Assembly (NCBI GenBank): GCA_947387485.1
Contig: CANDNT010000004.1
Location: forward strand, 124,001 to 188,000
Length of the DNA: 64,000 bases
DNA from: Aquimarina rhabdastrellae
GTDB taxonomy: Bacteria > Bacteroidota > Bacteroidia > Flavobacteriales > Flavobacteriaceae
Direction of reading: 5' to 3'
Shown: one piece after another, positions 27,079 to 41,360 of the stretch
How the letters are laid out: every line of letters starts with the position of its first letter
How positions within the stretch are numbered: the stretch's first letter is position 1
Made by a program: the position numbers and the translations under genes
Notes under the pieces: model-generated
The model's input: only the letters and a program-made list of their open reading frames with translations
Databases searched by the model: none
Told to the model about the DNA's origin: nothing

Positions 27079-30000
27079 TTAATTCGTCATTACTTCTCCT
27101 AATAAGGTTTCTATCGCAATCACGGTTTGATTGTTTAAGTATATCGCATCCAAGTATTCTGTTTGAATTGTATTGGCTACGGCCAAATTCTGGAGGTATT
27201 GCGTATAATTTATTTCACCTTCTTTAAAACTCAGATTTGCAGTCTTAATCAATAATTCGACTTGCGGAATTGCATTTTGAACATAATAGGCTAAAGTTTC
27301 TTGATATTTTTCATAAGCTTTGATATGTTCTTGTAAACTCGCTTCTTTCTCTACTTTAATCAATTCTAATTGACTTAAAGCTATCGTTTCTTTTAGCTTA
27401 GCCTGTTTTATTTTGGATCTATTCCCTCCAGGAAATAACGGAATTGCTAATCCCATTTTAAAAGATGAAAAACGATCTGAAGATGTATAACTAATTGCAT
27501 TATTAGCTATATTAGATTGTCCTGTATAGGTCTGACTATTGTATCCTAATAGAATATCTGGTAAGATTAAACTTCGACTTAACTTAGTTTCTTTTTCTTT
27601 TATTTTGACTTTGCCTTCAAGATATTTTATCAATGGTATATGAGCTACATTCTTTTTTGAATCTATAGCTAATAGTGTTTTAGTTTTAAAATCATTAGCA
27701 TTTAAAATCAAGTTATCTTCTGTGTATACTATTGCTTGTAATTTCTTCTTTGCAATGGCAATATCACTATCATTTTGTTTTAACAGATTATTCATTTTCA
27801 TAGCCTGAGTTCTTGACATTATATGTTCAAGTTTTGTTGTCTCCCCTGTTTCATACCTCTTTTTACTTGCAAAATCTAGTTGCTTATAAATACTATCTTG
27901 CTTTAATAGCAATTTTCTTTTAGCCAATTGCATTGCATAAAAATCATAGGCATTTTTAACTTTCCCGATTAATATTGTCTCTTGTAAAGCTTTATGATCT
28001 TCACTACTTTGCATTTTTGATTTAGCCAAAAGGTTTTGACGATAATATACCGTAGGAAAAGCTATACGTTGTGATATAGAAAATAAATCATCATCAACAC
28101 CTGGATTGCTTAATTCTCCATAACTATATGAAACTTCGGTTTTAGGTATATTAATAGCTTCATTTTTTGCTATTTTGGTCATCTCTACTTGGTAAGTTGC
28201 AATCTTTATGCTATTGTTATTTTTTAAAGCTTCCTTAATTGCTTCTTTTAAAGTTATAGTTCTTCCTTGTTTATTTATGTTTTGTGCATTTACTGTAGTT
28301 ATACTACTTAAGCCTAATACTAAGCCTAGTACTGTCACTATTTTATTAGCTTTGAATTTATTTTTCTTTAATGTGTAGCTATATAAAATAGGGATGATCA
28401 CCAAGGTTAGGATTGTCGCTGTAAATAGTCCTCCTATTACTACTGTAGCTAACGGACGTTGTACTTCGGCTCCAGATGTATTAGAAAGTGCCATAGGTAG
28501 AAACCCTAACGATGCTACCATTGCTGTCATTAACACAGGACGCAACCTGGTTTTTGTTCCTAAAAGTATTCGCTGATAAATATCTGTTATACCTTCTTTT
28601 TCTAATCTATTAAACTCAGCAATTAATACGATACCGTTTAAAACTGCTACACCAAATAACGCTATAAATCCAATTCCCGCCGAAATACTAAAAGGCATTT
28701 CTCTTAAAATAAGTCCAAATACTCCACCAATTGCAGAAAGTGGTATTGCTGTAAAAATCAACAAACTTTGTTTAACCGATTTAAATGTAAAATACAGTAA
28801 CAATAAAATCAGTAATAAAGCTGCTGGAACAGCTATCCCTAAACGTTTGTTTGCTTCTTGTAAATTTTTAAATTGTCCACCATAAGTAATATAGTATCCT
28901 GCTGGCATATTGATCTTTAAACCAATACGTTCTTTTATATCATTTACAATACTCTGTACATCTCTATTTCTTATATTAAAACCAATTGTAATTCGACGTT
29001 TGGCATTATCTCTTTGGATTTGTACAGGTCCTGGTTCATAAGAAATTTGAGCTACCTCTGCTAATGGTATCTGATTACCTGAAGCTGATGTTACATAAAT
29101 ATTCTTTACATCTGTAATGGCTGTTCTATACAATTTGTCTAAGCGTACGACAAGATCAAAACGTCGTTCTCCTTCGTAAATTAACCCTGCAGATTTTCCT
29201 GCAAACGAAGTAGCAATTACCGCATTGATATCTTCAATGTTCATTCCGTATTGTGCGATCTTATCTCGATTCATTTTTATCTGAATTTGAGGTAAACCAG
29301 TAATTTCTTCTATATATAAATCTTCTATTCCTGCTACGGTTTTAATTGTATTTCCTACTTGTGATGCTAAAGTCGAAAGTTTATCCAGATCTTCTCCATA
29401 TATCTTCAATACCACATCTTGCTTCGCTCCTGTAAGTAATTCGTTAAAACGCATTTGTATAGGTTGCTGAAATCCAAAGGTTGCATTGGCTATTACTGCT
29501 AATTTCTCTTCCATTTTTGTAACCAATTCTTCACGAGTATTTGCTACTTTCCATTCGTCTTTATCTTTAAGGATAATCATCATATCTCCTGCTTCTATAG
29601 GCATAGGATCTGTAGGTATTTCACCTGATCCTATTTTATTGACAACCTGCTTAACTTCATCCGGAAAATTCTTTAGTATAATTTTTTGAGCTTGAGTAGA
29701 AACTGCTATAGATTGCTGTATAGAACTCCCTACCGGAACTCTTGTTTCTACCGCAAAATCACCTTCATCCAATTGTGGAATAAATTCTCCTCCCATTGTA
29801 TTAAAAGTAATTACAGTTAGTATAAATACTCCAATAGTAATTCCTAAGACAAGACGTTTTCGCTGTAAAGCACCTTTTATAATTGGATCATAAAAACGTT
29901 GAAATACCGTCATCATTTTATCTGAAAAATTACGCTTATGCGTTGTTTTTCTACTTAACATCAAAGCAGACATCATAGGTACATAAGTTAAGGACAACAG

Positions 30001-31479
30001 AAAGGCTCCTAAAATGGCAAAAGAGACCGTTTGTGCCATAGGTCCAAACATTTTTCCTTCTACACCTACAAGTGCGAGAATTGGTAAATACACAATCAAA
30101 ATGATAATTTCTCCAAACGCAGCAGCAGATCGTATTTTTTTTGAAGATTGGTATACTTCTTCATCCATTTGCGCTTTTGTGAGCTTAGTTACTCCTGTAT
30201 ATTTTGTTTTACTCTTTGTTATGCCATGCATTACTGCTTCAACAATAATAACAGCACCATCTACTATTAATCCAAAATCAATTGCTCCTAAACTCATCAA
30301 ATTACCAGAAACACCGAACATATGCATCATTCCTATTGCAAAAAGCATGGATAATGGTATAACTGAAGCTACGACTAGTCCTCCTCTTAGGTTTCCTAAA
30401 AAGAGTATTAATACAAAAATAACGATCAATGCACCTTCGGCTAAGTTGGTTACTACAGTATTAATAGCTCTATCAACCAAGTTTTTTCTATCCAAAAATG
30501 GTTCTATAACAACCCCTTCTGGTAAGGTTGTCTTAATTTGTTCTATCATATCTTTTACATTAGTAATAACCTTAGAAGAATTAGCTCCTTTGAGCATCAT
30601 CACAATTCCTGTTACAACTTCTCCTTCTCCATTTCTAGTTGCTGCACCATAACGTGTACCGTGACCTAAAGTAACATTGGCAACATCTCTAATTAATATA
30701 GGGATACCATTTTCATTAACTTTAATTACAACTTTTTCTATTTCTTCAATATTCTTTATTAATCCTTCACTACGAATAAAAATAGCTTTTGGGTTTTTAT
30801 CGATATAAGCTCCACCAGTATTCTGATTGTTTTTCTTTAACGCTTCAAACAATTCTGATACTGATATATTCATGCTTTGTAATCGATTAGGATCAATTGC
30901 TACTTGGTATTGTTTAATATAACCTCCAAAACCACTCACTTCAGCTACTCCTTCTGTACCTAGAAGTTGTCGCTTAATAATCCAATCTTGAATTGTTCTT
31001 AACTCGGTAGCATCGTATTGTTTTTCATATCCTTTGGCAGGACGAACAACATATTGGTAAATTTCTCCTAATCCTGTTGTTACAGGTGCCATCTCTGGAG
31101 TTCCTATTCCTTCAGGTATATTTTTAGCAACTAATGCTAATCGTTCTTGTACTTGTTGTCTACCCCAATATAAATCAACATCTTCTTCAAAAACGATAGT
31201 GACTATAGATAGTCCGAATCTTGAAAAAGAACGCATTTCGTCTATATTAGGAATACTGACCATCGCTTGTTCTACAGGAAATGTGACAAGCTGTTCGACT
31301 TCTTGAGCGGCCAGTGTAGGCGATACCGTAATAACCATTACTTGATTATCTGTAATATCTGGTACCGCATCGATAGGTAGCTTTGATAAAGCATATGAGC
31401 CCCATATAATCAAAGCTACAGTGATTAGTCCGACAACTAATTTATTAGTTATCGAAAACTTTATTATTTTATCTAGCAT
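27079..31479 (-). CDS. Heavy-metal RND pump fused to a TolC-like channel domain
   Basis: 1466 residues, against about 1040 for an ordinary pump. Residues 1-1040 are a complete HME-RND permease with 12 membrane helices. The fourth helix carries 'DFGLIVDGAVIIVE' (D at about 401 and 407, E at about 414), the charged motif of CzcA-type divalent-cation pumps; CusA copper/silver pumps lack it. Residues about 1066-1466 are a TolC/CusC-like outer-membrane factor ('TITLKEAIKEALKNNNSIKI', long coiled hairpins). The two are joined by 'KIVTVLGLVLGLSSITTVNA', which looks like the signal peptide of the channel part retained inside the fusion. Upstream genes encode a His-rich protein and a thioredoxin-like protein. 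Likely exports Zn, Co, Cd or Ni. Confidence 0.85.
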   Translation of the reverse strand: MLDKIIKFSITNKLVVGLITVALIIWGSYALSKLPIDAVPDITDNQVMVITVSPTLAAQEVEQLVTFPVEQAMVSIPNIDEMRSFSRFGLSIVTIVFEEDVDLYWGRQQVQERLALVAKNIPEGIGTPEMAPVTTGLGEIYQYVVRPAKGYEKQYDATELRTIQDWIIKRQLLGTEGVAEVSGFGGYIKQYQVAIDPNRLQSMNISVSELFEALKKNNQNTGGAYIDKNPKAIFIRSEGLIKNIEEIEKVVIKVNENGIPILIRDVANVTLGHGTRYGAATRNGEGEVVTGIVMMLKGANSSKVITNVKDMIEQIKTTLPEGVVIEPFLDRKNLVDRAINTVVTNLAEGALIVIFVLILFLGNLRGGLVVASVIPLSMLFAIGMMHMFGVSGNLMSLGAIDFGLIVDGAVIIVEAVMHGITKSKTKYTGVTKLTKAQMDEEVYQSSKKIRSAAAFGEIIILIVYLPILALVGVEGKMFGPMAQTVSFAILGAFLLSLTYVPMMSALMLSRKTTHKRNFSDKMMTVFQRFYDPIIKGALQRKRLVLGITIGVFILTVITFNTMGGEFIPQLDEGDFAVETRVPVGSSIQQSIAVSTQAQKIILKNFPDEVKQVVNKIGSGEIPTDPMPIEAGDMMIILKDKDEWKVANTREELVTKMEEKLAVIANATFGFQQPIQMRFNELLTGAKQDVVLKIYGEDLDKLSTLASQVGNTIKTVAGIEDLYIEEITGLPQIQIKMNRDKIAQYGMNIEDINAVIATSFAGKSAGLIYEGERRFDLVVRLDKLYRTAITDVKNIYVTSASGNQIPLAEVAQISYEPGPVQIQRDNAKRRITIGFNIRNRDVQSIVNDIKERIGLKINMPAGYYITYGGQFKNLQEANKRLGIAVPAALLLILLLLYFTFKSVKQSLLIFTAIPLSAIGGVFGLILREMPFSISAGIGFIALFGVAVLNGIVLIAEFNRLEKEGITDIYQRILLGTKTRLRPVLMTAMVASLGFLPMALSNTSGAEVQRPLATVVIGGLFTATILTLVIIPILYSYTLKKNKFKANKIVTVLGLVLGLSSITTVNAQNINKQGRTITLKEAIKEALKNNNSIKIATYQVEMTKIAKNEAINIPKTEVSYSYGELSNPGVDDDLFSISQRIAFPTVYYRQNLLAKSKMQSSEDHKALQETILIGKVKNAYDFYAMQLAKRKLLLKQDSIYKQLDFASKKRYETGETTKLEHIMSRTQAMKMNNLLKQNDSDIAIAKKKLQAIVYTEDNLILNANDFKTKTLLAIDSKKNVAHIPLIKYLEGKVKIKEKETKLSRSLILPDILLGYNSQTYTGQSNIANNAISYTSSDRFSSFKMGLAIPLFPGGNRSKIKQAKLKETIALSQLELIKVEKEASLQEHIKAYEKYQETLAYYVQNAIPQVELLIKTANLSFKEGEINYTQYLQNLAVANTIQTEYLDAIYLNNQTVIAIETLLGEVMTN

Positions 31480-34027: not shown

Positions 34028-34489
34028 TCAAATCACATAAACATTAAGTGATATAGCAATACACATCCATATTATATAAGGTAATATTAAAAGAGACCAT
34101 AAGTTCATCTCTCTTTTAAACTTACTTGTCATCAATATCAATACAATTTGTAAAGCGATTAATATGATAACTCCTAATATGATATAATGCTGATTAAAAA
34201 AAATGTAATTCCAAGACACATTTAAAATCCATTGCAAACTATAAAGTGTAACTACTTTTTTTGTAGATACTCTATGCCATAGTTGAGCCATATATACAGC
34301 AAAACAAATCATAATAAAAGACCATGCTATCCCAAATAAAGCATTAGGTGGTGACCATGGTGCTTTATCTAGATTAGCATACCATAGTGATCTAGGTCCG
34401 TTATCCATAAGATAAATACCTAAAGCTAATGCTGCAAAATTGAGTACTAGAAAAACTAAAAAGTTTTTTATCCCTTGTATACTTTTCAT
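34028..34489 (-). CDS. tspO: TspO/MBR family membrane protein
   Basis: 153 residues with five membrane helices and the family's tryptophan-rich signature ('WYANLDKAPWSPPNALFGIA', then 'WNYIFFNQHYIILG'). Bacterial TspO binds porphyrins and intermediates of tetrapyrrole metabolism and is often light- or oxygen-regulated. It starts 4 bases after the FolE stop, at the end of a photolyase-pterin operon, consistent with light or oxidative-stress control. The usual length fits. Confidence 0.85.
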   Translation of the reverse strand: MKSIQGIKNFLVFLVLNFAALALGIYLMDNGPRSLWYANLDKAPWSPPNALFGIAWSFIMICFAVYMAQLWHRVSTKKVVTLYSLQWILNVSWNYIFFNQHYIILGVIILIALQIVLILMTSKFKREMNLWSLLILPYIIWMCIAISLNVYVI

Positions 34490-34492
34490 GTT

Positions 34493-35194
34493 TTAATCTT
34501 TTATATAGCCTTGTAGTTCTCTTATTTTTGCTTCTGTATTAAATACTCCTCCATAGTATACTGTTACAGTTTCTGAAGTATCATCTTTTACTCCTCTAGA
34601 TGAAACACAAAGATGCTTTGCTTCTATGATCACAGCTACGTCTCTTGTATCTAATATGTTCTCTAATTCTTTTCCTATTTGATTTGTTAATCGTTCTTGT
34701 ACTTGTGGTCGCTTAGCATAATATTGTACAATACGATTGAGTTTTGATAAACCTATTACTTTACCCGAAGAGATATATGCAATATGAGCTTTACCTATTA
34801 TAGGAACAAAATGATGTTCGCAATTAGAATAGAAACTTATATTCTTCTCTACCAACATTTGATGGTATTTATACGTATTATTAAATAATGCGATTTTAGG
34901 TTTATTTTTAGGATCTAAGCCAGAAAAAATCTCCTCGATATACATTTTAGCAACTCTATCTGGTGTTCCCTTTAAGGAGTCATCTGTAAGATCTAATCCT
35001 AAAACATCCATTATTTCGCTAAAAAGCACACTAATCTTTTCCTTCTTTTCTTCATTGGTTAATGTAAAGGCATCTTCTTTTAAAGGTGTTTCTAGGCTAG
35101 TAAACATATGTTCATCTCCTATTTCATCTATCGTAAAATCAATCAAATTTGATTCTTCAATAAGGGTATTCTGCATAATTTCGTTCTGTTTCAT
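34493..35194 (-). CDS. folE: GTP cyclohydrolase I
   Basis: 233 residues. Zinc ligands are visible in 'YSNCEHHFVPIIGKAHIAY' (C, H) and 'AKHLCVSSRGVKDDTSET' (C), plus 'KVIGLSKLNRIVQYYAKRPQ'. It opens GTP to 7,8-dihydroneopterin triphosphate, the common precursor of folate and reduced pterins. The N-terminal ~45 residues are an extra acidic extension. From ATG 35194 the gene overlaps the PTPS gene by 38 bases; an alternative ATG at 35107 falls after that gene's end. FolE with PTPS indicates dedicated pterin synthesis. Confidence 0.92.
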   Translation of the reverse strand: MKQNEIMQNTLIEESNLIDFTIDEIGDEHMFTSLETPLKEDAFTLTNEEKKEKISVLFSEIMDVLGLDLTDDSLKGTPDRVAKMYIEEIFSGLDPKNKPKIALFNNTYKYHQMLVEKNISFYSNCEHHFVPIIGKAHIAYISSGKVIGLSKLNRIVQYYAKRPQVQERLTNQIGKELENILDTRDVAVIIEAKHLCVSSRGVKDDTSETVTVYYGGVFNTEAKIRELQGYIKD

Positions 35195-35579
35195 ATAGCT
35201 TAATTTTTAATTCTAATGCTGGATCAATATGTGATCGTAATCTATCATAAATTACCATTGCAATATGTTCTACTGTAGGATTCAAATTTTTAAAATCTTC
35301 TACTTCTAGATTAAGGTTTTTATGATCCAAAGGGGTTAATATATTAGTCTTTATCAATTCTGATAAAACTTTTGTATCCATTACATAGCCGGTTTCTGGA
35401 TTGCATATACCTATTATTTTAACTTCAAGGTCATAGTTATGCCCATGATAATGAGGGTTATTACATTTACCAAAAACTTCTTTATTTTTTTCGTCGCTCC
35501 AATGTGCATTATGTAATCGATGTGCTGCATTGAAATGTTCTTTTCGTATAATTGCTGTACGATATTGAGGAGTTTTCAT
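35157..35579 (-). CDS. 6-pyruvoyl-tetrahydropterin synthase (eukaryote-type motif)
   Basis: 140 residues. The site 'GKCNNPHYHGHNYDLEV' has Cys-x5-HGH, the spacing of animal PTPS, whereas E. coli QueD has Cys-x3-HGH. First zinc histidine is in 'EHFNAAHRLHN'; the glutamate is near the C-terminal 'KLYETERN'. The enzyme converts dihydroneopterin triphosphate to 6-pyruvoyl-tetrahydropterin (biopterin route); QueD activity cannot be excluded. Downstream FolE provides its substrate. No queuosine genes are adjacent. Located in the photolyase operon. Confidence 0.82.
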   Translation of the reverse strand: MKTPQYRTAIIRKEHFNAAHRLHNAHWSDEKNKEVFGKCNNPHYHGHNYDLEVKIIGICNPETGYVMDTKVLSELIKTNILTPLDHKNLNLEVEDFKNLNPTVEHIAMVIYDRLRSHIDPALELKIKLYETERNYAEYPY

Positions 35580-35586
35580 TTTATGT

Positions 35587-35856
35587 TTATATACGCTTAC
35601 TTATTTTGTTTAATGATATATTACGTTGTCTATTACATTTGAATCTACCTTTTTCAAAACTTCTTCTCTTTAAATGTTTGGTAACTCTTCCTTGTACTCG
35701 TTTTCTCCATCTATTAAAACTTGATCGTTTTAATTCTTTTCTCATAAGTGAAATCACTTGAGATTCATTTAATCCAAATTGATACTTAATAGCTTCAAAA
35801 GGTGTTCTATCTTCCCATGCCATTTCTATGATTCGATCTAATGTTCTATCTGTCAT
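35587..35856 (-). CDS. TIGR03643 family small basic protein
   Basis: 89 residues. The N-terminal half holds a helix-turn-helix-like 'TLDRIIEMAWEDRTPFEAI' and 'GLNESQVISLMRKELKRSSF', the signature of the TIGR03643 family; the C-terminal ~40 residues are Arg/Lys-rich. Members occur beside photolyase/cryptochrome genes in Bacteroidetes and Proteobacteria, with no known function. It overlaps the upstream hypothetical gene by 11 bases and precedes PTPS by 7. A nucleic-acid-binding role is suggested by charge only. Confidence 0.75.
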   Translation of the reverse strand: MTDRTLDRIIEMAWEDRTPFEAIKYQFGLNESQVISLMRKELKRSSFNRWRKRVQGRVTKHLKRRSFEKGRFKCNRQRNISLNKISKRI

Positions 35857-36277
35857 AAAAATCGCTATTATTTTTCCCCAATACTTCTATTCTCATTTGT
35901 TTCATTTTCTCTATAAACACGTTATTTTCTTTATAACTTTTTAGTTTAAATTGTATATACTGTCCTTGAGCATGTAGGCTAAAAAATTCTGTTTTATAGT
36001 ACACCAACTGGTAATATGGTATACACCATGTATATGTTTGATGTAATTGTTTTATATGAGTTAATATTCCTTGTGGCCTCAATTCTATATTTGCATAATT
36101 AAGATCACTATTTTCAATTAACTTTTTATTGATCATATTGCTTGCTTTAACTATAATCATTCTTGACGAACCTACTCCTTTAAGTTTAAGTTTTTGCCAA
36201 ATAGAAAATGGTTTCCCGACCAATTCATTAATTCTTTTTGTTATCTCAGGTTCTTCATATGTAGTTTCAATAATCAT
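35846..36277 (-). CDS. Hypothetical protein of the photolyase operon, 143 aa
   Basis: I do not recognise the family. The protein is soluble, basic and mixed alpha/beta ('SRMIIVKASNMINKKLI', 'TYTWCIPYYQLVYYKTEFF'), with many aromatics. Its ATG overlaps the photolyase stop by 4 bases (ATGA) and its end overlaps the TIGR03643 gene by 11, so it is translationally tied to both. By position it may help photolyase assembly, chromophore loading or DNA repair; inference only. Confidence 0.6.
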   Translation of the reverse strand: MIIETTYEEPEITKRINELVGKPFSIWQKLKLKGVGSSRMIIVKASNMINKKLIENSDLNYANIELRPQGILTHIKQLHQTYTWCIPYYQLVYYKTEFFSLHAQGQYIQFKLKSYKENNVFIEKMKQMRIEVLGKNNSDFYDR

Positions 36278-37761
36278 GAGCTTCTAGTTTTACGATTCAT
36301 TAAAGTATGCCTAAGTAGAATTCGCTTACTTTCTTCTATTACCAATTTATCTGTTCTCAGTTTCCATAAAGTATCACTTGCTCGTTTACGATTTAATTTC
36401 ATATCAATAATTGGATAAGGATATGCTTCTCCTAATCTAAAATTATATAATCCTTGTTCTAGCGAAGTCATTAAATACGGTTCATGTATAAATCGTGTAT
36501 CAAGTGATGCTAACTCTGGCACCCAAGCTTTAATAAACGCTGCATCTGGATCATGTTCTAGTCCGTTTTTTATAGGATTATATATACGTAAAGTGTTGAT
36601 TCCTGTCTCTCCTGCTTGCATTTGTAATTGAGGAAAATGAATTCCTGGTTCAAAATCTAGAAATTGTCTGGATAAATGTATTGTTGCTTCTTGCCAAGGT
36701 TGCCATAATAAATGTGTAAAAAAAGAAACGACCATTGCTCTCATTCTAAAATTGAGATAGCCAGTAGTATTCAAACATCGCATACATGCATCAACGATAG
36801 GCACTCCAGTATTCCCTGTTTTCCAAGCTTCTTGAAACTCTTGAGATATTTTCTTTTTAAGTTTATGAAATCCTTTATTTACACTTGCTTTTTCCATCAC
36901 GTATTCCATTTCAAATTTTTGTATAAAATGTGCCTGCCATCGCAATCGCGCCATAAACCCATCTAAAGTTCGTTTTTTAGGACTAACTTTCCGTAAGGCT
37001 TTTGCTTCTTGCCATACTTCTCTTATCGATAAATTACCCCAAGCAAAATATGGTGATAATCGACTACAACCTGTACGAGATCCTTGCGGTTTAGAAATAT
37101 CTGAAGCATAATTTTGATATCGCTCTTCAAAAAATGAAGCTTTATAACGAAGCGCCATTTGTCGTCCTCCTTTTTGAAAAGGTGTTTTTAATATCGTATG
37201 GAGTGATACTGTTTTAAAATGTTTGTTAATGTTCTCTATTACTTCATTTGAAATAAAATTCTCTTTCTGTGGGTTAAACTTATATGTGTTGGTTTTCATA
37301 TAATCTTCCCATTGTATACCCCAATCTAATCTATTTTGTATTCCTCTTTGTACTCCATTATTTATATTCTCGATCCATTTAATCTTATTATTTTTACAAT
37401 ACCTATTAAATTTTTTATCTCGCTGATATGTTATTAATATTCCCGTTTCTTGATGTGAATAAACAGTATCTATAAAAAACAATTCTTGCAATTTATTCAT
37501 CACTGAGATCATATCTGATTGTACAGCCAACACTTGAGTATTATAACTTTGTAATTTTGTATTTATAGCTACAATTGATTGTTTTATAAAATCCCAATGT
37601 CGTTTACTATAATGAGTATCATTAAGTAATAATTCTTCAAACACATATAACAATAAGATACGCTTACCACTAGCAATAGCATTACTTATTGCTTCGTTAT
37701 CTTCTAAACGTAGATCCCTTTTAAACCAAACAATTACAATATGTTCTTTTTTATTATACAT
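36274..37761 (-). CDS. Deoxyribodipyrimidine photolyase/cryptochrome, intact
   Basis: 495 residues. The N-terminal alpha/beta domain starts 'VIVWFKRDLRLEDNEAI'. The C-terminal FAD domain shows 'GVPIVDACMRCLNTTGYLNF', 'RMRAMVVSFFTHLLWQPWQE' and 'AGETGINTLRIYNPIKNG'. It binds FAD and uses blue light to split pyrimidine dimers; subclass cannot be fixed by eye. It is the only full-length photolyase here: the two upstream photolyase-type genes are broken. Its start overlaps the end of the FeS-photolyase remnant by 8 bases and it couples to the hypothetical downstream gene. Confidence 0.88.
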   Translation of the reverse strand: MYNKKEHIVIVWFKRDLRLEDNEAISNAIASGKRILLLYVFEELLLNDTHYSKRHWDFIKQSIVAINTKLQSYNTQVLAVQSDMISVMNKLQELFFIDTVYSHQETGILITYQRDKKFNRYCKNNKIKWIENINNGVQRGIQNRLDWGIQWEDYMKTNTYKFNPQKENFISNEVIENINKHFKTVSLHTILKTPFQKGGRQMALRYKASFFEERYQNYASDISKPQGSRTGCSRLSPYFAWGNLSIREVWQEAKALRKVSPKKRTLDGFMARLRWQAHFIQKFEMEYVMEKASVNKGFHKLKKKISQEFQEAWKTGNTGVPIVDACMRCLNTTGYLNFRMRAMVVSFFTHLLWQPWQEATIHLSRQFLDFEPGIHFPQLQMQAGETGINTLRIYNPIKNGLEHDPDAAFIKAWVPELASLDTRFIHEPYLMTSLEQGLYNFRLGEAYPYPIIDMKLNRKRASDTLWKLRTDKLVIEESKRILLRHTLMNRKTRSS

Positions 37762-38302
37762 CCTGTGTTGTTATGATGTGCATTGCCCTTTTCTTGATTT
37801 TTTCACGCTCTTCAATCGGAATCTTATTTAGAATACTGTACATCATTTTCATTCTTCTATTCTTAGCAAGTTTTTCTCGATGTATCTCTAAAAAATTCCA
37901 ATACAAACTATTAAAAGGACAGGAGTCACTTTCTATTCTCGTTTTGTGATTATAGGTACAACTCGTACAGTAATTACTCATTTTATTGATATAGCTTGCC
38001 GATGAGATATACGGTTTTGTTGCTATTAACCCACTATCTGCATATTGGCTCATGCCTCTCGTGTTAGGTAGTTGTACCCATTCTATAGCATCTATATATA
38101 CACCTAAGTACCAAGCATCTACTTGACTAGGGTTTACCATAGATAATAATGCATAATTACCTAAAACCATTAAGCGTTGAATGTGATGTGCATATGCATT
38201 ATCTAATGAATTTTGAACTGCATGTTTTATACAATTCATATTTGTATGAGCATTCCAGTAAAAATCTGGTAGTTCTTGATTGTGATTAATGAGTATAAAC
38301 AC
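37754..38302 (-). pseudogene. C-terminal remnant of an iron-sulfur (6-4) photolyase
   Basis: A 182-codon frame starting at GTG 38302 encodes only the C-terminal part of an FeS-BCP/PhrB-type photolyase, which is about 510 residues when complete. Clear landmarks are 'MNCIKHAVQNSLDNAYAHHI', 'WYLGVYIDAIEWVQLPNTRG', 'MSQYADSGLIATKPYISSAS' and the cluster cysteines 'YCTSCTYNHKTRIESDSCP'; with the cysteine in 'MNCIKH' all four cluster ligands are present. The N-terminal ~330 residues, including the antenna domain and part of the FAD pocket, are missing, and a stop lies two codons before the GTG. It abuts the CRY-DASH remnant in another reading frame. Probably non-functional. Confidence 0.8.
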
Positions 38303-38623
38303 ATTTTATATCATACTTTTTTGCAAGTAATTTTATAACCGCTATAGGTTCTTTTAAACTAACTTCAAGGGGAACCAATAGATCCGATAGGTTTTTTCTT
38401 AGATTACAAAGACTCTCTAATAGAAATTTTGCTCTATATACTTCTAGTTTTCTAATCCCTAATTCATTACTATCAAAAATCTTATCATCAAAACAATATA
38501 ATCCAATAACACTTTTATGATTGTCTAATGCTTGTTTTAGTACATTATTATCATGTATTCTTAAGTCATTCTTAAGTCATTTTTAAACCATACTAATGCT
38601 ACATCATCAGCTTCATTATTCAT
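38286..38623 (-). pseudogene. N-terminal remnant of a CRY-DASH-like gene with frameshift
   Basis: ATG 38623 reads MNNEADDVALVWFKNDLR and then hits TAA at 38561 after 20 codons. The cause is an 11-bp tandem duplication (cttaagtcatt at 38560-38570 and again at 38571-38581). Removing one copy restores a frame that continues for about 90 codons: 'IHDNNVLKQALDNHKSVIGL', 'YRAKFLLESLCNLRKNL', ending 'YDIKCVYTH' with TAA at 38286. The 'FLLESLCNLRKNL' segment is typical of CRY-DASH. The FAD domain is absent and the remnant ends at the FeS-photolyase piece. It starts 20 bases after the flavin reductase gene, so it was part of the same operon. Confidence 0.8.
38560..38581. repeat. 11-bp tandem duplication that breaks the CRY-DASH frame
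   Basis: Two perfect head-to-tail copies of cttaagtcatt. Eleven is not a multiple of three, so the duplication shifts the frame; with a single copy the reading of a photolyase N-terminal domain is continuous. Confidence 0.85.
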
Positions 38624-38642: not shown

Positions 38643-39296
38643 TCAATTATTATTGGTCTCAAATTGAGCTAAGACATCTTGTCTTGGCCGTTGATAATCA
38701 TATCTTCTACGTTCTTTTGGAGTAGCATAAGCATCTAATCCATTGATTGCTGTTACATTTCCTTCAACTAAATCAACAAATCCATCATGTTTTATGAGGT
38801 TTTCTTTAATAAACAATGCTTCTATCGATCCTATAAGCAAAATAGTATCATTAGATTTAATATAATATTCTTCTTCATACTTCATCAATAACTGTACAGG
38901 AGCATTTTTTACAAAAGGCACATCCCATTCATCTCTATATTGAGGAGTTAACTTCGTTGCATCAAATTCTGAGAATTCCAAAGGGTATTTAGCAGATGTA
39001 TGGTGTGCCTCTTGAGTTATTTCTTCATGTATATGATTTATAGTATAATACTTTGTTTCTTTTATATTTTTATACGTATCTCTAGGTACTGTTAATGGTC
39101 TAAAAACCATTCCCATTAAAGGAGGTGCTGACCCCATATGTACTACAGAACTAAATACTGCTACATTAGGTCTTTTATTATTAGAAATTGATCCTATGAG
39201 ATTAGCAGGTTTAAATCCAGAACAACTGTTGATTAAATTAATTTTATAGAGATGCTCTAATGCATCAATTTCTGATCTTAAAAATCTTTTCATCAT
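38643..39296 (-). CDS. Flavin reductase-like domain protein
   Basis: 217 residues. The FMN-binding split-barrel pattern is seen in 'GFKPANLIGSISNNKRPNVA', 'MVFRPLTVPRDTYKNIKETK' and 'YTINHIHEEITQEAHHTSAK'. Such flavoproteins use NAD(P)H-reduced FMN or store flavin; in photolyase clusters a supply of reduced flavin would keep FAD active (inference). It overlaps the ABC1-kinase stop by 4 bases (TGA/ATG) and is followed 20 bases on by the broken CRY-DASH gene. Confidence 0.8.
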   Translation of the reverse strand: MMKRFLRSEIDALEHLYKINLINSCSGFKPANLIGSISNNKRPNVAVFSSVVHMGSAPPLMGMVFRPLTVPRDTYKNIKETKYYTINHIHEEITQEAHHTSAKYPLEFSEFDATKLTPQYRDEWDVPFVKNAPVQLLMKYEEEYYIKSNDTILLIGSIEALFIKENLIKHDGFVDLVEGNVTAINGLDAYATPKERRRYDYQRPRQDVLAQFETNNN

Positions 39297-40615
39297 CTAT
39301 TTTCATTCAGTTTTTTAAACCTATTAATCTCTATGTGATTTGCTTTTAAATCATGCATTAAATTATATAGTCCAAAAAATGCTCTATTCATATAAATAAA
39401 GTGTTTAGAGCCTCTATTTCCATTCATTTTTCGCAATGTAGTATCCTTTGAATAGCGTTCACCAAGTTTTGCTATTTTCCCAAAAAAGTCACCATCAGAG
39501 AAATCAAAATAAACTTCATGAAAAGGTTGTGTAAATAAGCTAAGCATCTCATGAAACATCGCAGAAAAGAATTTCTTTTCTTGAGGAGTATCATCTTCTT
39601 TCAAAATTTCTAATTCATAAAGTTTTTGTTTAAAAACCTCTGGATTTGATAACTTCTCTTTTTCTGCAAGTTCAAAATATGGTTCATAAAATGTTTGGGG
39701 AATAGCCTTTACACAACCAAAATCTAAGATGACCAGTTGATCATCTGGGGTAATCAAGAAGTTTCCTGGATGTGGATCTGCGTGTACTTTTCGTAAACAG
39801 TGGATTTGATGCATATAAAAATCCCATAAAGCTTGTCCTATTTTATTAGATTTATTTACATCATTATTACGTGCGGTAAATTCAGATAAATGTTCTCCTT
39901 TCATCCAATCCATCGTAATAATTCTATCCGACGATAATTGGGGATAATACTCTGGAAAGATCACATTAGGAATATGTTTACAGGCTTTGGCAAGTTCTTC
40001 GCTTTGCTTGATTTCTAATATATAATCTGTTTCTTCTTCAAGCTTTTGTTCTACTTCTTTAAAATATTTATCAGAGCCTTTTCCTTCTATATTAAACATT
40101 TTCATCGCAATAGGTTTGACCAATGCTAGATCTGAAGCTATACTTTGAGCTACACCTGGATATTGTATTTTCACAGCTAATTTTTTCCCATCTTTTTTTG
40201 CCAAGTGTACTTGTCCTATACTTGCTGCATTAATAGCATTGGTATCAAAACTATCATAAAGCTCTTGCGGAGATTGACCAAAATACTTTTTAAAAGTCTT
40301 GATCACTAAAGGTGGCGATAATGGTGGTACCGAAAATTGAGATAAAGAAAATTTCTCTACATAGGCATTGGGTAGTAGATTCTTTTCCATACTCAGCATT
40401 TGTGCCACTTTAAGAGCACTACCTTTTAAGTTCTTCAATCCATTATAAATATCTTCTGCATTTGCATTATTTAATTTCTCTTTGGCTGAATTTTCATTAC
40501 TTACAATACGGTCGCCATAATATTTGATATAATTTATCCCAACTTTTGCTCCTGTTTCAATTAGTTTTGAAGCACGTTGTATTTTTGTAATCGGTATACT
40601 ATCTATTGTCTTCAT
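39293..40615 (-). CDS. ABC1/UbiB-like (AarF) atypical kinase
   Basis: 440 residues. The kinase-like core shows the A-rich loop 'INAASIGQVHLAKKDG' (in place of the usual Gly-rich loop), a lysine in 'KLAVKIQYPG', the catalytic 'VHADPHPGNFLI' and the metal motif 'VILDFGCVK'. The family's KxGQ motif is changed to 'KVAQ' ('SALKVAQMLSME'), an Ala for Gly. Members regulate quinone biosynthesis or isoprenoid lipids as ATPases. It follows the TetR gene by 3 bases and overlaps the flavin reductase, so it is part of this photolyase-pterin operon. Its job here is unknown. Confidence 0.85.
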   Translation of the reverse strand: MKTIDSIPITKIQRASKLIETGAKVGINYIKYYGDRIVSNENSAKEKLNNANAEDIYNGLKNLKGSALKVAQMLSMEKNLLPNAYVEKFSLSQFSVPPLSPPLVIKTFKKYFGQSPQELYDSFDTNAINAASIGQVHLAKKDGKKLAVKIQYPGVAQSIASDLALVKPIAMKMFNIEGKGSDKYFKEVEQKLEEETDYILEIKQSEELAKACKHIPNVIFPEYYPQLSSDRIITMDWMKGEHLSEFTARNNDVNKSNKIGQALWDFYMHQIHCLRKVHADPHPGNFLITPDDQLVILDFGCVKAIPQTFYEPYFELAEKEKLSNPEVFKQKLYELEILKEDDTPQEKKFFSAMFHEMLSLFTQPFHEVYFDFSDGDFFGKIAKLGERYSKDTTLRKMNGNRGSKHFIYMNRAFFGLYNLMHDLKANHIEINRFKKLNENR

Positions 40616-40618
40616 ATA

Positions 40619-41272
40619 TCATCTTCTTAAGTTTTCTTTAAATAAAAATTTACCCAAATCCATTACACTTTTTATAGGCTTGATATTCATTAAATCAAAG
40701 CAAGCTGTAACAGATTTCTCTATAAATACATCAGTTTTTTCAAATCTCTCTGAAGTATCTTTCTTCCAATAATTGATAAAAATTATCAATTGCCCCCAGC
40801 CTAATTCTTCTATCTTTTTATCCTGAAACCTATTTAAATTCTTATTCTTTAATTCCAACTTCTCTATTTCTAAACCACTCATAAATTCTTTCACATTTTT
40901 TCTAAGTCCTGAAAAAAGCGAAATACTGTGACTTATGCTTGTTTGTTTTTGAAGTACATATAGTACAAAGCTTCTATTTACCGTAAGTATCTCAAAAAAA
41001 GTATAATAAAAACTCAGTAATTGATCCTTGGCTTGAAACGTATGATAGGCTTCATTTTTATGTAATAATGCTATAGTATGATTATAAAAGGCAGTAAAAA
41101 CATGTTTTTCTAAAACTTCAAAGGAAGCAAAAAACGTGTAGAACTCTGATTCCTCTATTCCACATTCTTTAGCAAATACATATACATTTTCTGGTGCTTT
41201 ACCCTGCTTTAAGACAAAATCCATATAGGCTGATACCAATTGCATCTTATCCATTTTAACTTCCTGACTCAT
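40619..41272 (-). CDS. TetR family regulator of the photolyase operon
   Basis: 217 residues from ATG 41272; a TTG at 41299 in the same frame is unlikely. The N-terminal region is a degenerate TetR helix-turn-helix ('VYVFAKECGIEESEFYTFF'), and the rest is helical. It is the first gene of the run that continues with the ABC1 kinase 3 bases downstream and ends at tspO, so it probably controls its own operon, possibly in response to a light- or stress-generated compound. Such TetR-ABC1-photolyase orders recur in flavobacteria (from general knowledge, not checked here). Confidence 0.75.
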   Translation of the reverse strand: MSQEVKMDKMQLVSAYMDFVLKQGKAPENVYVFAKECGIEESEFYTFFASFEVLEKHVFTAFYNHTIALLHKNEAYHTFQAKDQLLSFYYTFFEILTVNRSFVLYVLQKQTSISHSISLFSGLRKNVKEFMSGLEIEKLELKNKNLNRFQDKKIEELGWGQLIIFINYWKKDTSERFEKTDVFIEKSVTACFDLMNIKPIKSVMDLGKFLFKENLRR

Positions 41273-41360
41273 AAGCTTTTTATTTATTTTCTTATTCAAA
41301 AATACAAATTGTTTAACTTTTAAACAAAAAGATTAAACAAAATAATTTTATGCATAAAAA

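Follow-up and report, generated by a model that had tools for sequence, protein, structure and literature searches.

Adjoining remnants of CRY-DASH and FeS-BCP photolyase genes in Aquimarina rhabdastrellae, probably left by a recent deletion at a three-photolyase locus

We found that a photolyase gene cluster of Aquimarina rhabdastrellae contains the beginning of a CRY-DASH-type gene and the end of an FeS-BCP ((6-4) photolyase) gene, which lie next to each other in different reading frames, the sequence between them being gone. The stretch of DNA that was analyzed, hereafter the window, comprises 64,000 nucleotides (bases 124001-188000 of contig 4) of a 5.0-Mb genome assembled in 59 contigs. 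The best reading, to which we assign a probability of roughly 93%, is recent non-functionalization of a three-photolyase locus by a deletion and a separate duplication, i.e., ordinary gene decay. The initial annotation of the window had proposed two adjoining decayed photolyase genes, a frameshifting 11-bp duplication in the 5' one, and a former trio of photolyase-family genes with one member intact today. The remnants were confirmed by Pfam, NCBIfam and PDB matches (a CRY-DASH N-terminus and an FeS-BCP C-terminus), the duplication by an exact repeat at which the frame changes, and the former trio by the ordered genes of relatives, together with a third gene that is open here.

The CRY-DASH-type remnant occupies positions 38286..38623 of the minus strand, where it runs from a start codon at 38623 through codons 1 to ~106 to a stop at 38288-38286. 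The first frame reads MNNEADDVALVWFKNDLR and is broken at the 11-bp repeat, after which the translation continues in another frame, RIHDNN...KCVYTH, up to the stop. When read through the duplication, the fragment matches the PF00875 antenna domain (E = 3.9e-21), and its best NCBIfam model is TIGR02765 crypto_DASH (E = 2.6e-19), with a score of 69.5 bits versus a full-length cut-off of 317 bits; the intact DASH of L050 (Algibacter sp. MAG) scores 497.6. Among PDB chains, it matches 6kii (E = 4e-16, residues 9-107) and the cryptochrome DASH 2j4d (E = 1.1e-12), and its part 3' of the duplication aligns to residues 18-106 of the 436-residue L050 DASH. Thus, compared to the CRY-DASH cryptochrome/photolyase family (TIGR02765; PDB 2j4d), the first ~106 codons correspond to the N-terminal antenna domain; however, the remnant is frameshifted by the duplication and has no FAD-binding domain, and no full-length open CRY-DASH frame is found here, residues 107-436 being gone. 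The possibility that this N-terminal piece is the own N-terminus of FeS-BCP was considered and rejected, given the PF00875 and CRY-DASH matches and a genome without PF04244.

The exact 11-bp tandem duplication is located at 38557..38578 (copies 38557-38567 and 38568-38578), inside a conserved motif of the CRY-DASH remnant, and the reading frame is switched exactly there. No other exact tandem duplication with a 10-39 bp unit occurs in the window. In order-2 Markov simulations of 64-kb sequences, the average number of duplications was 0.03 for period 11 (30 runs) and 0.5 for periods 10-39 (10 runs), so that one such repeat at some place in the window is no more than slightly unusual by chance. 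Besides the effect of the duplication, there is no stop in the remnant up to the junction.

The second remnant is the C-terminal FeS-binding part of FeS-BCP, an open frame of 182 aa on the minus strand (37754..38302). It corresponds to the last ~177 FeS-BCP codons, lies in the third frame relative to the two CRY-DASH frames, and aligns to residues 337-513 of the 515-residue L050 FeS-BCP, with 60-70% identity to intact relatives. Matches in the PDB were obtained for 7ykn (residues 361-523, E = 5e-64), PhrB 4dja (residues 333-500, E = 2.7e-57) and CryB 3zxs. Four cysteines are kept (in MNC, CTSC and SCP) and align with those of relatives and of the PDB chains; we take them to be the ligands of the FeS cluster. 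The 182-aa frame has no Pfam or NCBIfam match at default limits, and the intact FeS-BCP of L050 is likewise without an NCBIfam match. Compared to FeS-BCP, or prokaryotic (6-4) photolyase (7ykn, 4dja PhrB, 3zxs CryB), the C-terminal ~165 residues align, cysteines included, whereas the N-terminal two thirds, to which the PF04244 domain and a portion of the FAD-binding domain belong, are missing. A functional FeS-BCP has a length of ~500 aa and the N-terminal PF04244 domain; the frame in the window has neither, residues 1-336 being absent.

The junction of the presumed ~2.0-kb deletion is at 38286..38302, where CRY-DASH homology stops and FeS-BCP homology starts. In the numbering of L050, DASH residues 107-436 and FeS-BCP residues 1-336 are absent, which by this yardstick amounts to ~2.0 kb, with the 12-base gap between the two L050 genes included. 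Judging by the relatives, the ancestral locus would have contained three adjacent photolyase-family genes, namely CRY-DASH, FeS-BCP and a third photolyase, and a deletion of ~2.0 kb from CRY-DASH codon ~107 to FeS-BCP codon ~336 would have fused the remnants out of frame; a single event is the simplest reading. The CRY-DASH frame would have been broken separately, by the 11-bp tandem duplication that can be seen in the sequence itself. The third photolyase gene would have been left open, and erosion of this gene set is likely to have been repeated in the genus. A working photolyase needs a complete FAD-binding domain in addition to its antenna domain. Since neither remnant has both, neither should be able to make a working enzyme, as far as can be judged from knowledge of the family. 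Because there is no further stop or frameshift in either half, the loss is probably recent. In general terms, bacterial pseudogenes are known to arise by deletion and short tandem duplication; the ordered remnants with a lost middle and one frameshifting duplication described here are no different in kind.

The third photolyase-family gene (36274..37761, minus strand) is intact and encodes 495 aa with PF03441 (E = 9.7e-60) and PF00875 domains; it is below the cut-off of all five NCBIfam photolyase/cryptochrome models that it matches. Its start overlaps the stop of the 182-aa FeS frame, and in relatives the same two genes abut at distances of -7 to +66 bases. All surrounding genes are on the minus strand as well. 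Just upstream of the CRY-DASH remnant are a flavin reductase-like gene (38643..39296, PF01613), an ABC1-family atypical kinase gene (39293..40615, PF03109) and a TetR-type regulator (40619..41299, PF17931). On the other side, the third photolyase is followed by a 143-aa protein (35846..36277) that is without a Pfam match and recurs at many of the named loci (40-54% identity), a DUF2805 / TIGR03643 protein (35587..35856), a 6-pyruvoyl tetrahydropterin synthase-like gene (35157..35579, PF01242), GTP cyclohydrolase I (folE, 34493..35194, PF01227) and a TspO/MBR family protein (34028..34489, PF03073). The order TetR, ABC1, flavin reductase, photolyases, 143-aa protein, DUF2805, folE, TspO is common to many named loci (Algibacter, Psychroserpens, Lacinutrix); L050 has an extra 476-aa gene between flavin reductase and DASH, which is absent from the window. 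Within the photolyase cluster, folE and the 6-pyruvoyl tetrahydropterin synthase-like gene (34493-35579) overlap by 38 bases, and, as a guess, these two genes might supply pterin for the antenna cofactor. Elsewhere in the window, at 27079-31479, there is a 1466-aa frame that by eye looks like a fusion of an RND efflux pump and a TolC-like outer-membrane protein.

We also searched the rest of the genome. No match to PF04244, the N-terminal domain of FeS-BCP, was found in it (the domain is present in 37 of 66 genus genomes), nor any CRY-DASH above the TIGR02765 cut-off, which the intact L050 DASH passes; therefore, no other part of the assembly contains the lost pieces. The genome contains two PF03441 genes, both open: the third gene of the cluster and a gene on contig 1. 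The latter fits class-I photolyase models best, below their cut-offs, and its 222 bits for TIGR02765 are also below the cut-off. The same searches led us to reject a second intact CRY-DASH or FeS-BCP elsewhere that would have taken over.

Using 66 genomes of the genus, we obtained a match to the FeS remnant in 38, that of the window included; the other matches comprise 33 genomes with a near type of FeS-BCP and four with a distant type (38-41% identity; G005, G019, G078 and G082), which was left out of the 33. The initial annotation had predicted intact CRY-DASH and FeS-BCP genes in this order in near relatives, and this is what we observed: in 33/33 genomes with near-type FeS-BCP (including G064 and G075), DASH, FeS-BCP and the third photolyase are ordered on one strand and nearly touching, the third gene being cut by the contig end in G031 and G075. 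The complete trio was found at 34 of the 80 named loci, always in this order within 5 kb; at the other 46, at least one gene is missing at the identity limits used, and many of these loci are cut by a contig end or otherwise arranged. Relatives with the same short frame, which would have spoken against decay, were sought and none was found: in the other 37 matching genomes of the genus, the open frame has 493-551 aa, and FeS frames of <400 aa among the 80 named loci are confined to L095 (192 aa) and L114 (208 aa), both no more than 90 bases from a contig start. The short FeS frame as a family of its own was therefore rejected, as no relative has such a form. Intact homologues thus stand at the same place in relatives and are disrupted in the window, as is expected of pseudogenes.

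Loss of photolyase genes is common in the genus. In 33 genus genomes, the number of PF03441 (FAD_binding_7) matches per genome ranges from 0 (two incomplete genomes) to 5; there is one match in 13 genomes, two in 2 (this genome and G013), and three or more in 16. The nearest genus genomes by ABC1 identity are G011 (79%) and G008 (73%). In G008, TetR, ABC1 and FlavR are followed directly by TspO, the photolyase block being absent (L144 4762-7834), and G011 has kept TetR-ABC1-FlavR with no photolyase within the 14 kb examined (L143 8283-10886); each of them has one PF03441 gene, elsewhere in the genome. It should be noted that ABC1 in the genus genomes is mostly on another contig or distant from the photolyases. 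Partial states were found in two incomplete genomes: in G013 (78% complete; L151 7265-9385), the third gene stands alone after a glutathione peroxidase-like gene, with no DASH or FeS-BCP in 12 kb, and in G074 (81% complete; L152 1-760), the third gene comes directly after the end of DASH, FeS-BCP being absent.

Several other disrupted frames were noted, all of which may be draft errors: a DASH that is short of ~100 residues and changes frame in Tamlana sedimentorum (L076 3932-4941), possible frame breaks in the DASH of L062 (2093-3419) and the FeS-BCP of L088 (5004-6537), and an in-frame stop in the second photolyase paralogue of G064 (L153 5289-6737). Tiny DASH frames in L037, L099, L119 and L120 were discarded, as their alignments start 5' of the start codon and all stops fall within aligned positions 1-7. 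The DASH of L098 was likewise rejected as a decayed gene, one and the same frame being found on either side of an unaligned middle.

For the rate tests, relatives were chosen for a complete cluster out of the 80 named loci: 19 for the invariant-column and tree-distance tests (18 for DASH and 16 for folE), 21 for the replacement and codon-position test (20 for DASH), and 14 plus L073 for the conserved-column test. In the tree of the third photolyase, the window groups with 15 of the 23 named-set sequences and with none of the 14 genus sequences (support 100), i.e., its neighbours are Algibacter-like sequences and not those of its own genus, which suggests a transfer or an old retained copy. The FeS remnant has a long branch and is placed with an outgroup, which is taken as a long-branch effect; therefore, the third-gene tree alone was used for the position of the window, and L073 is its sister only in that tree. 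With this reservation on L073, lone changes at columns at least 80% conserved in the 14 relatives number 24 for the FeS remnant versus 5 for L073 (chi-square 12.5), the highest value of the five genes in this test. The corresponding numbers are 29 to 11 for ABC1 (8.1), which is also fast, 33 to 20 for the third photolyase (3.2), 12 to 6 for the DASH remnant (2.0) and 15 to 11 for flavin reductase (0.6). Among columns invariant in the relatives, changes were found at 11/97 in FeS-BCP, i.e., 86/97 columns invariant in 19 relatives are unchanged in the remnant, 5/20 in DASH, 8/181 in the third photolyase, 17/251 in ABC1, 7/73 in flavin reductase, 9/36 in the 143-aa protein, 1/47 in DUF2805 and 6/135 in folE. 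Against decay, the FeS remnant shows conservative replacements, with a mean BLOSUM of 0.27 (random single-base changes give -0.27). The ratio of changes at codon positions 1+2 to those at position 3 is 0.44 compared to 0.29 among relatives; it is raised hardly more than in the intact ABC1 (0.37 versus 0.26) and flavin reductase (0.53 versus 0.37). The window-to-relatives ratio of tree distances is 2.48 for the FeS remnant, inside the 1.37-2.59 spanned by the intact neighbours. A random base change in the FeS frame produces a stop with a probability of 0.075, and the probability of no stop after 20-30 neutral changes is 0.21-0.10. Recent loss accounts for the open FeS frame and for the rate data without selection, and recency is favored over constraint because the DASH remnant, which is broken, has no additional stop before the junction either.

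The alternative in which the 182-aa frame is a live stand-alone FeS-binding helical domain that survived the deletion and is co-translated with the third photolyase was weighed against these data. It would be in line with the open frame, the four cysteines, the conservative replacements, the retention of most invariant columns, and the overlap of the stop with the start of the third photolyase. However, the overlap with the third gene, being ancestral, is no sign of new use, an open frame is also predicted by recent decay given the no-stop chance of 0.21-0.10, and the DASH remnant, which is broken, has equally few further stops; moreover, the short form is found in no relative, and conserved columns have changed 24 to 5 against L073. 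We consider this alternative very unlikely, and an activity of such a translated FeS domain, e.g., as an electron-transfer or DNA-binding helper of the adjoining photolyase, is just as improbable.

The chance that the genes are really intact, and that the duplication and the junction are artefacts of sequencing or assembly, appears similarly slim: the genome is a 59-contig draft, but the locus is in the interior of a 269-kb contig and not at its end, two different defects occur at most 300 bases apart, and neither the missing FeS-BCP domain nor another CRY-DASH was matched on any other contig. Least probable of all is that the pieces were never whole neighbours here and that recombination joined fragments already broken. 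The grouping of the third gene with Algibacter-like sequences would allow a mixed history of the block; however, the remnants have the exact order, strand and spacing of the trio in both groups, down to the overlap with the third gene.

We found nothing relevant on decayed photolyase genes in Flavobacteriia in the open-licence literature. PMC9649867 deals with a photolyase operon of a cyanobacterium. In marine Flavobacteriia, a proximity cluster of photolyase and related genes is described as enriched in rhodopsin-bearing genomes, with 2.9 copies of one photolyase paralogue per proteorhodopsin-bearing genome versus 1.9 (PMC5932025, accessible part). That part of the paper makes no mention of truncated genes or of the junction reported here, and the cluster described there may correspond to the present gene set. 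The genome of the window, which lacks a whole FeS-BCP, has no rhodopsin match either (10 of the 56 genomes searched have one). Rhodopsin was observed in 5 of 33 genus genomes (G015, G022, G023, G025 and G029), all five with near-type FeS-BCP.

With recent decay as the preferred reading, the window shows how genes for light-dependent DNA repair are lost in marine Flavobacteriia, caught cleanly at an intermediate stage. The states form a series, from the full trio in relatives, through the break in the window, to the flanking genes with no adjoining photolyase in G008 and G011, the nearest genus genomes by ABC1 identity. No new mechanism is involved, and the finding agrees with the view in the literature that the ways of coping with UV vary among these bacteria.
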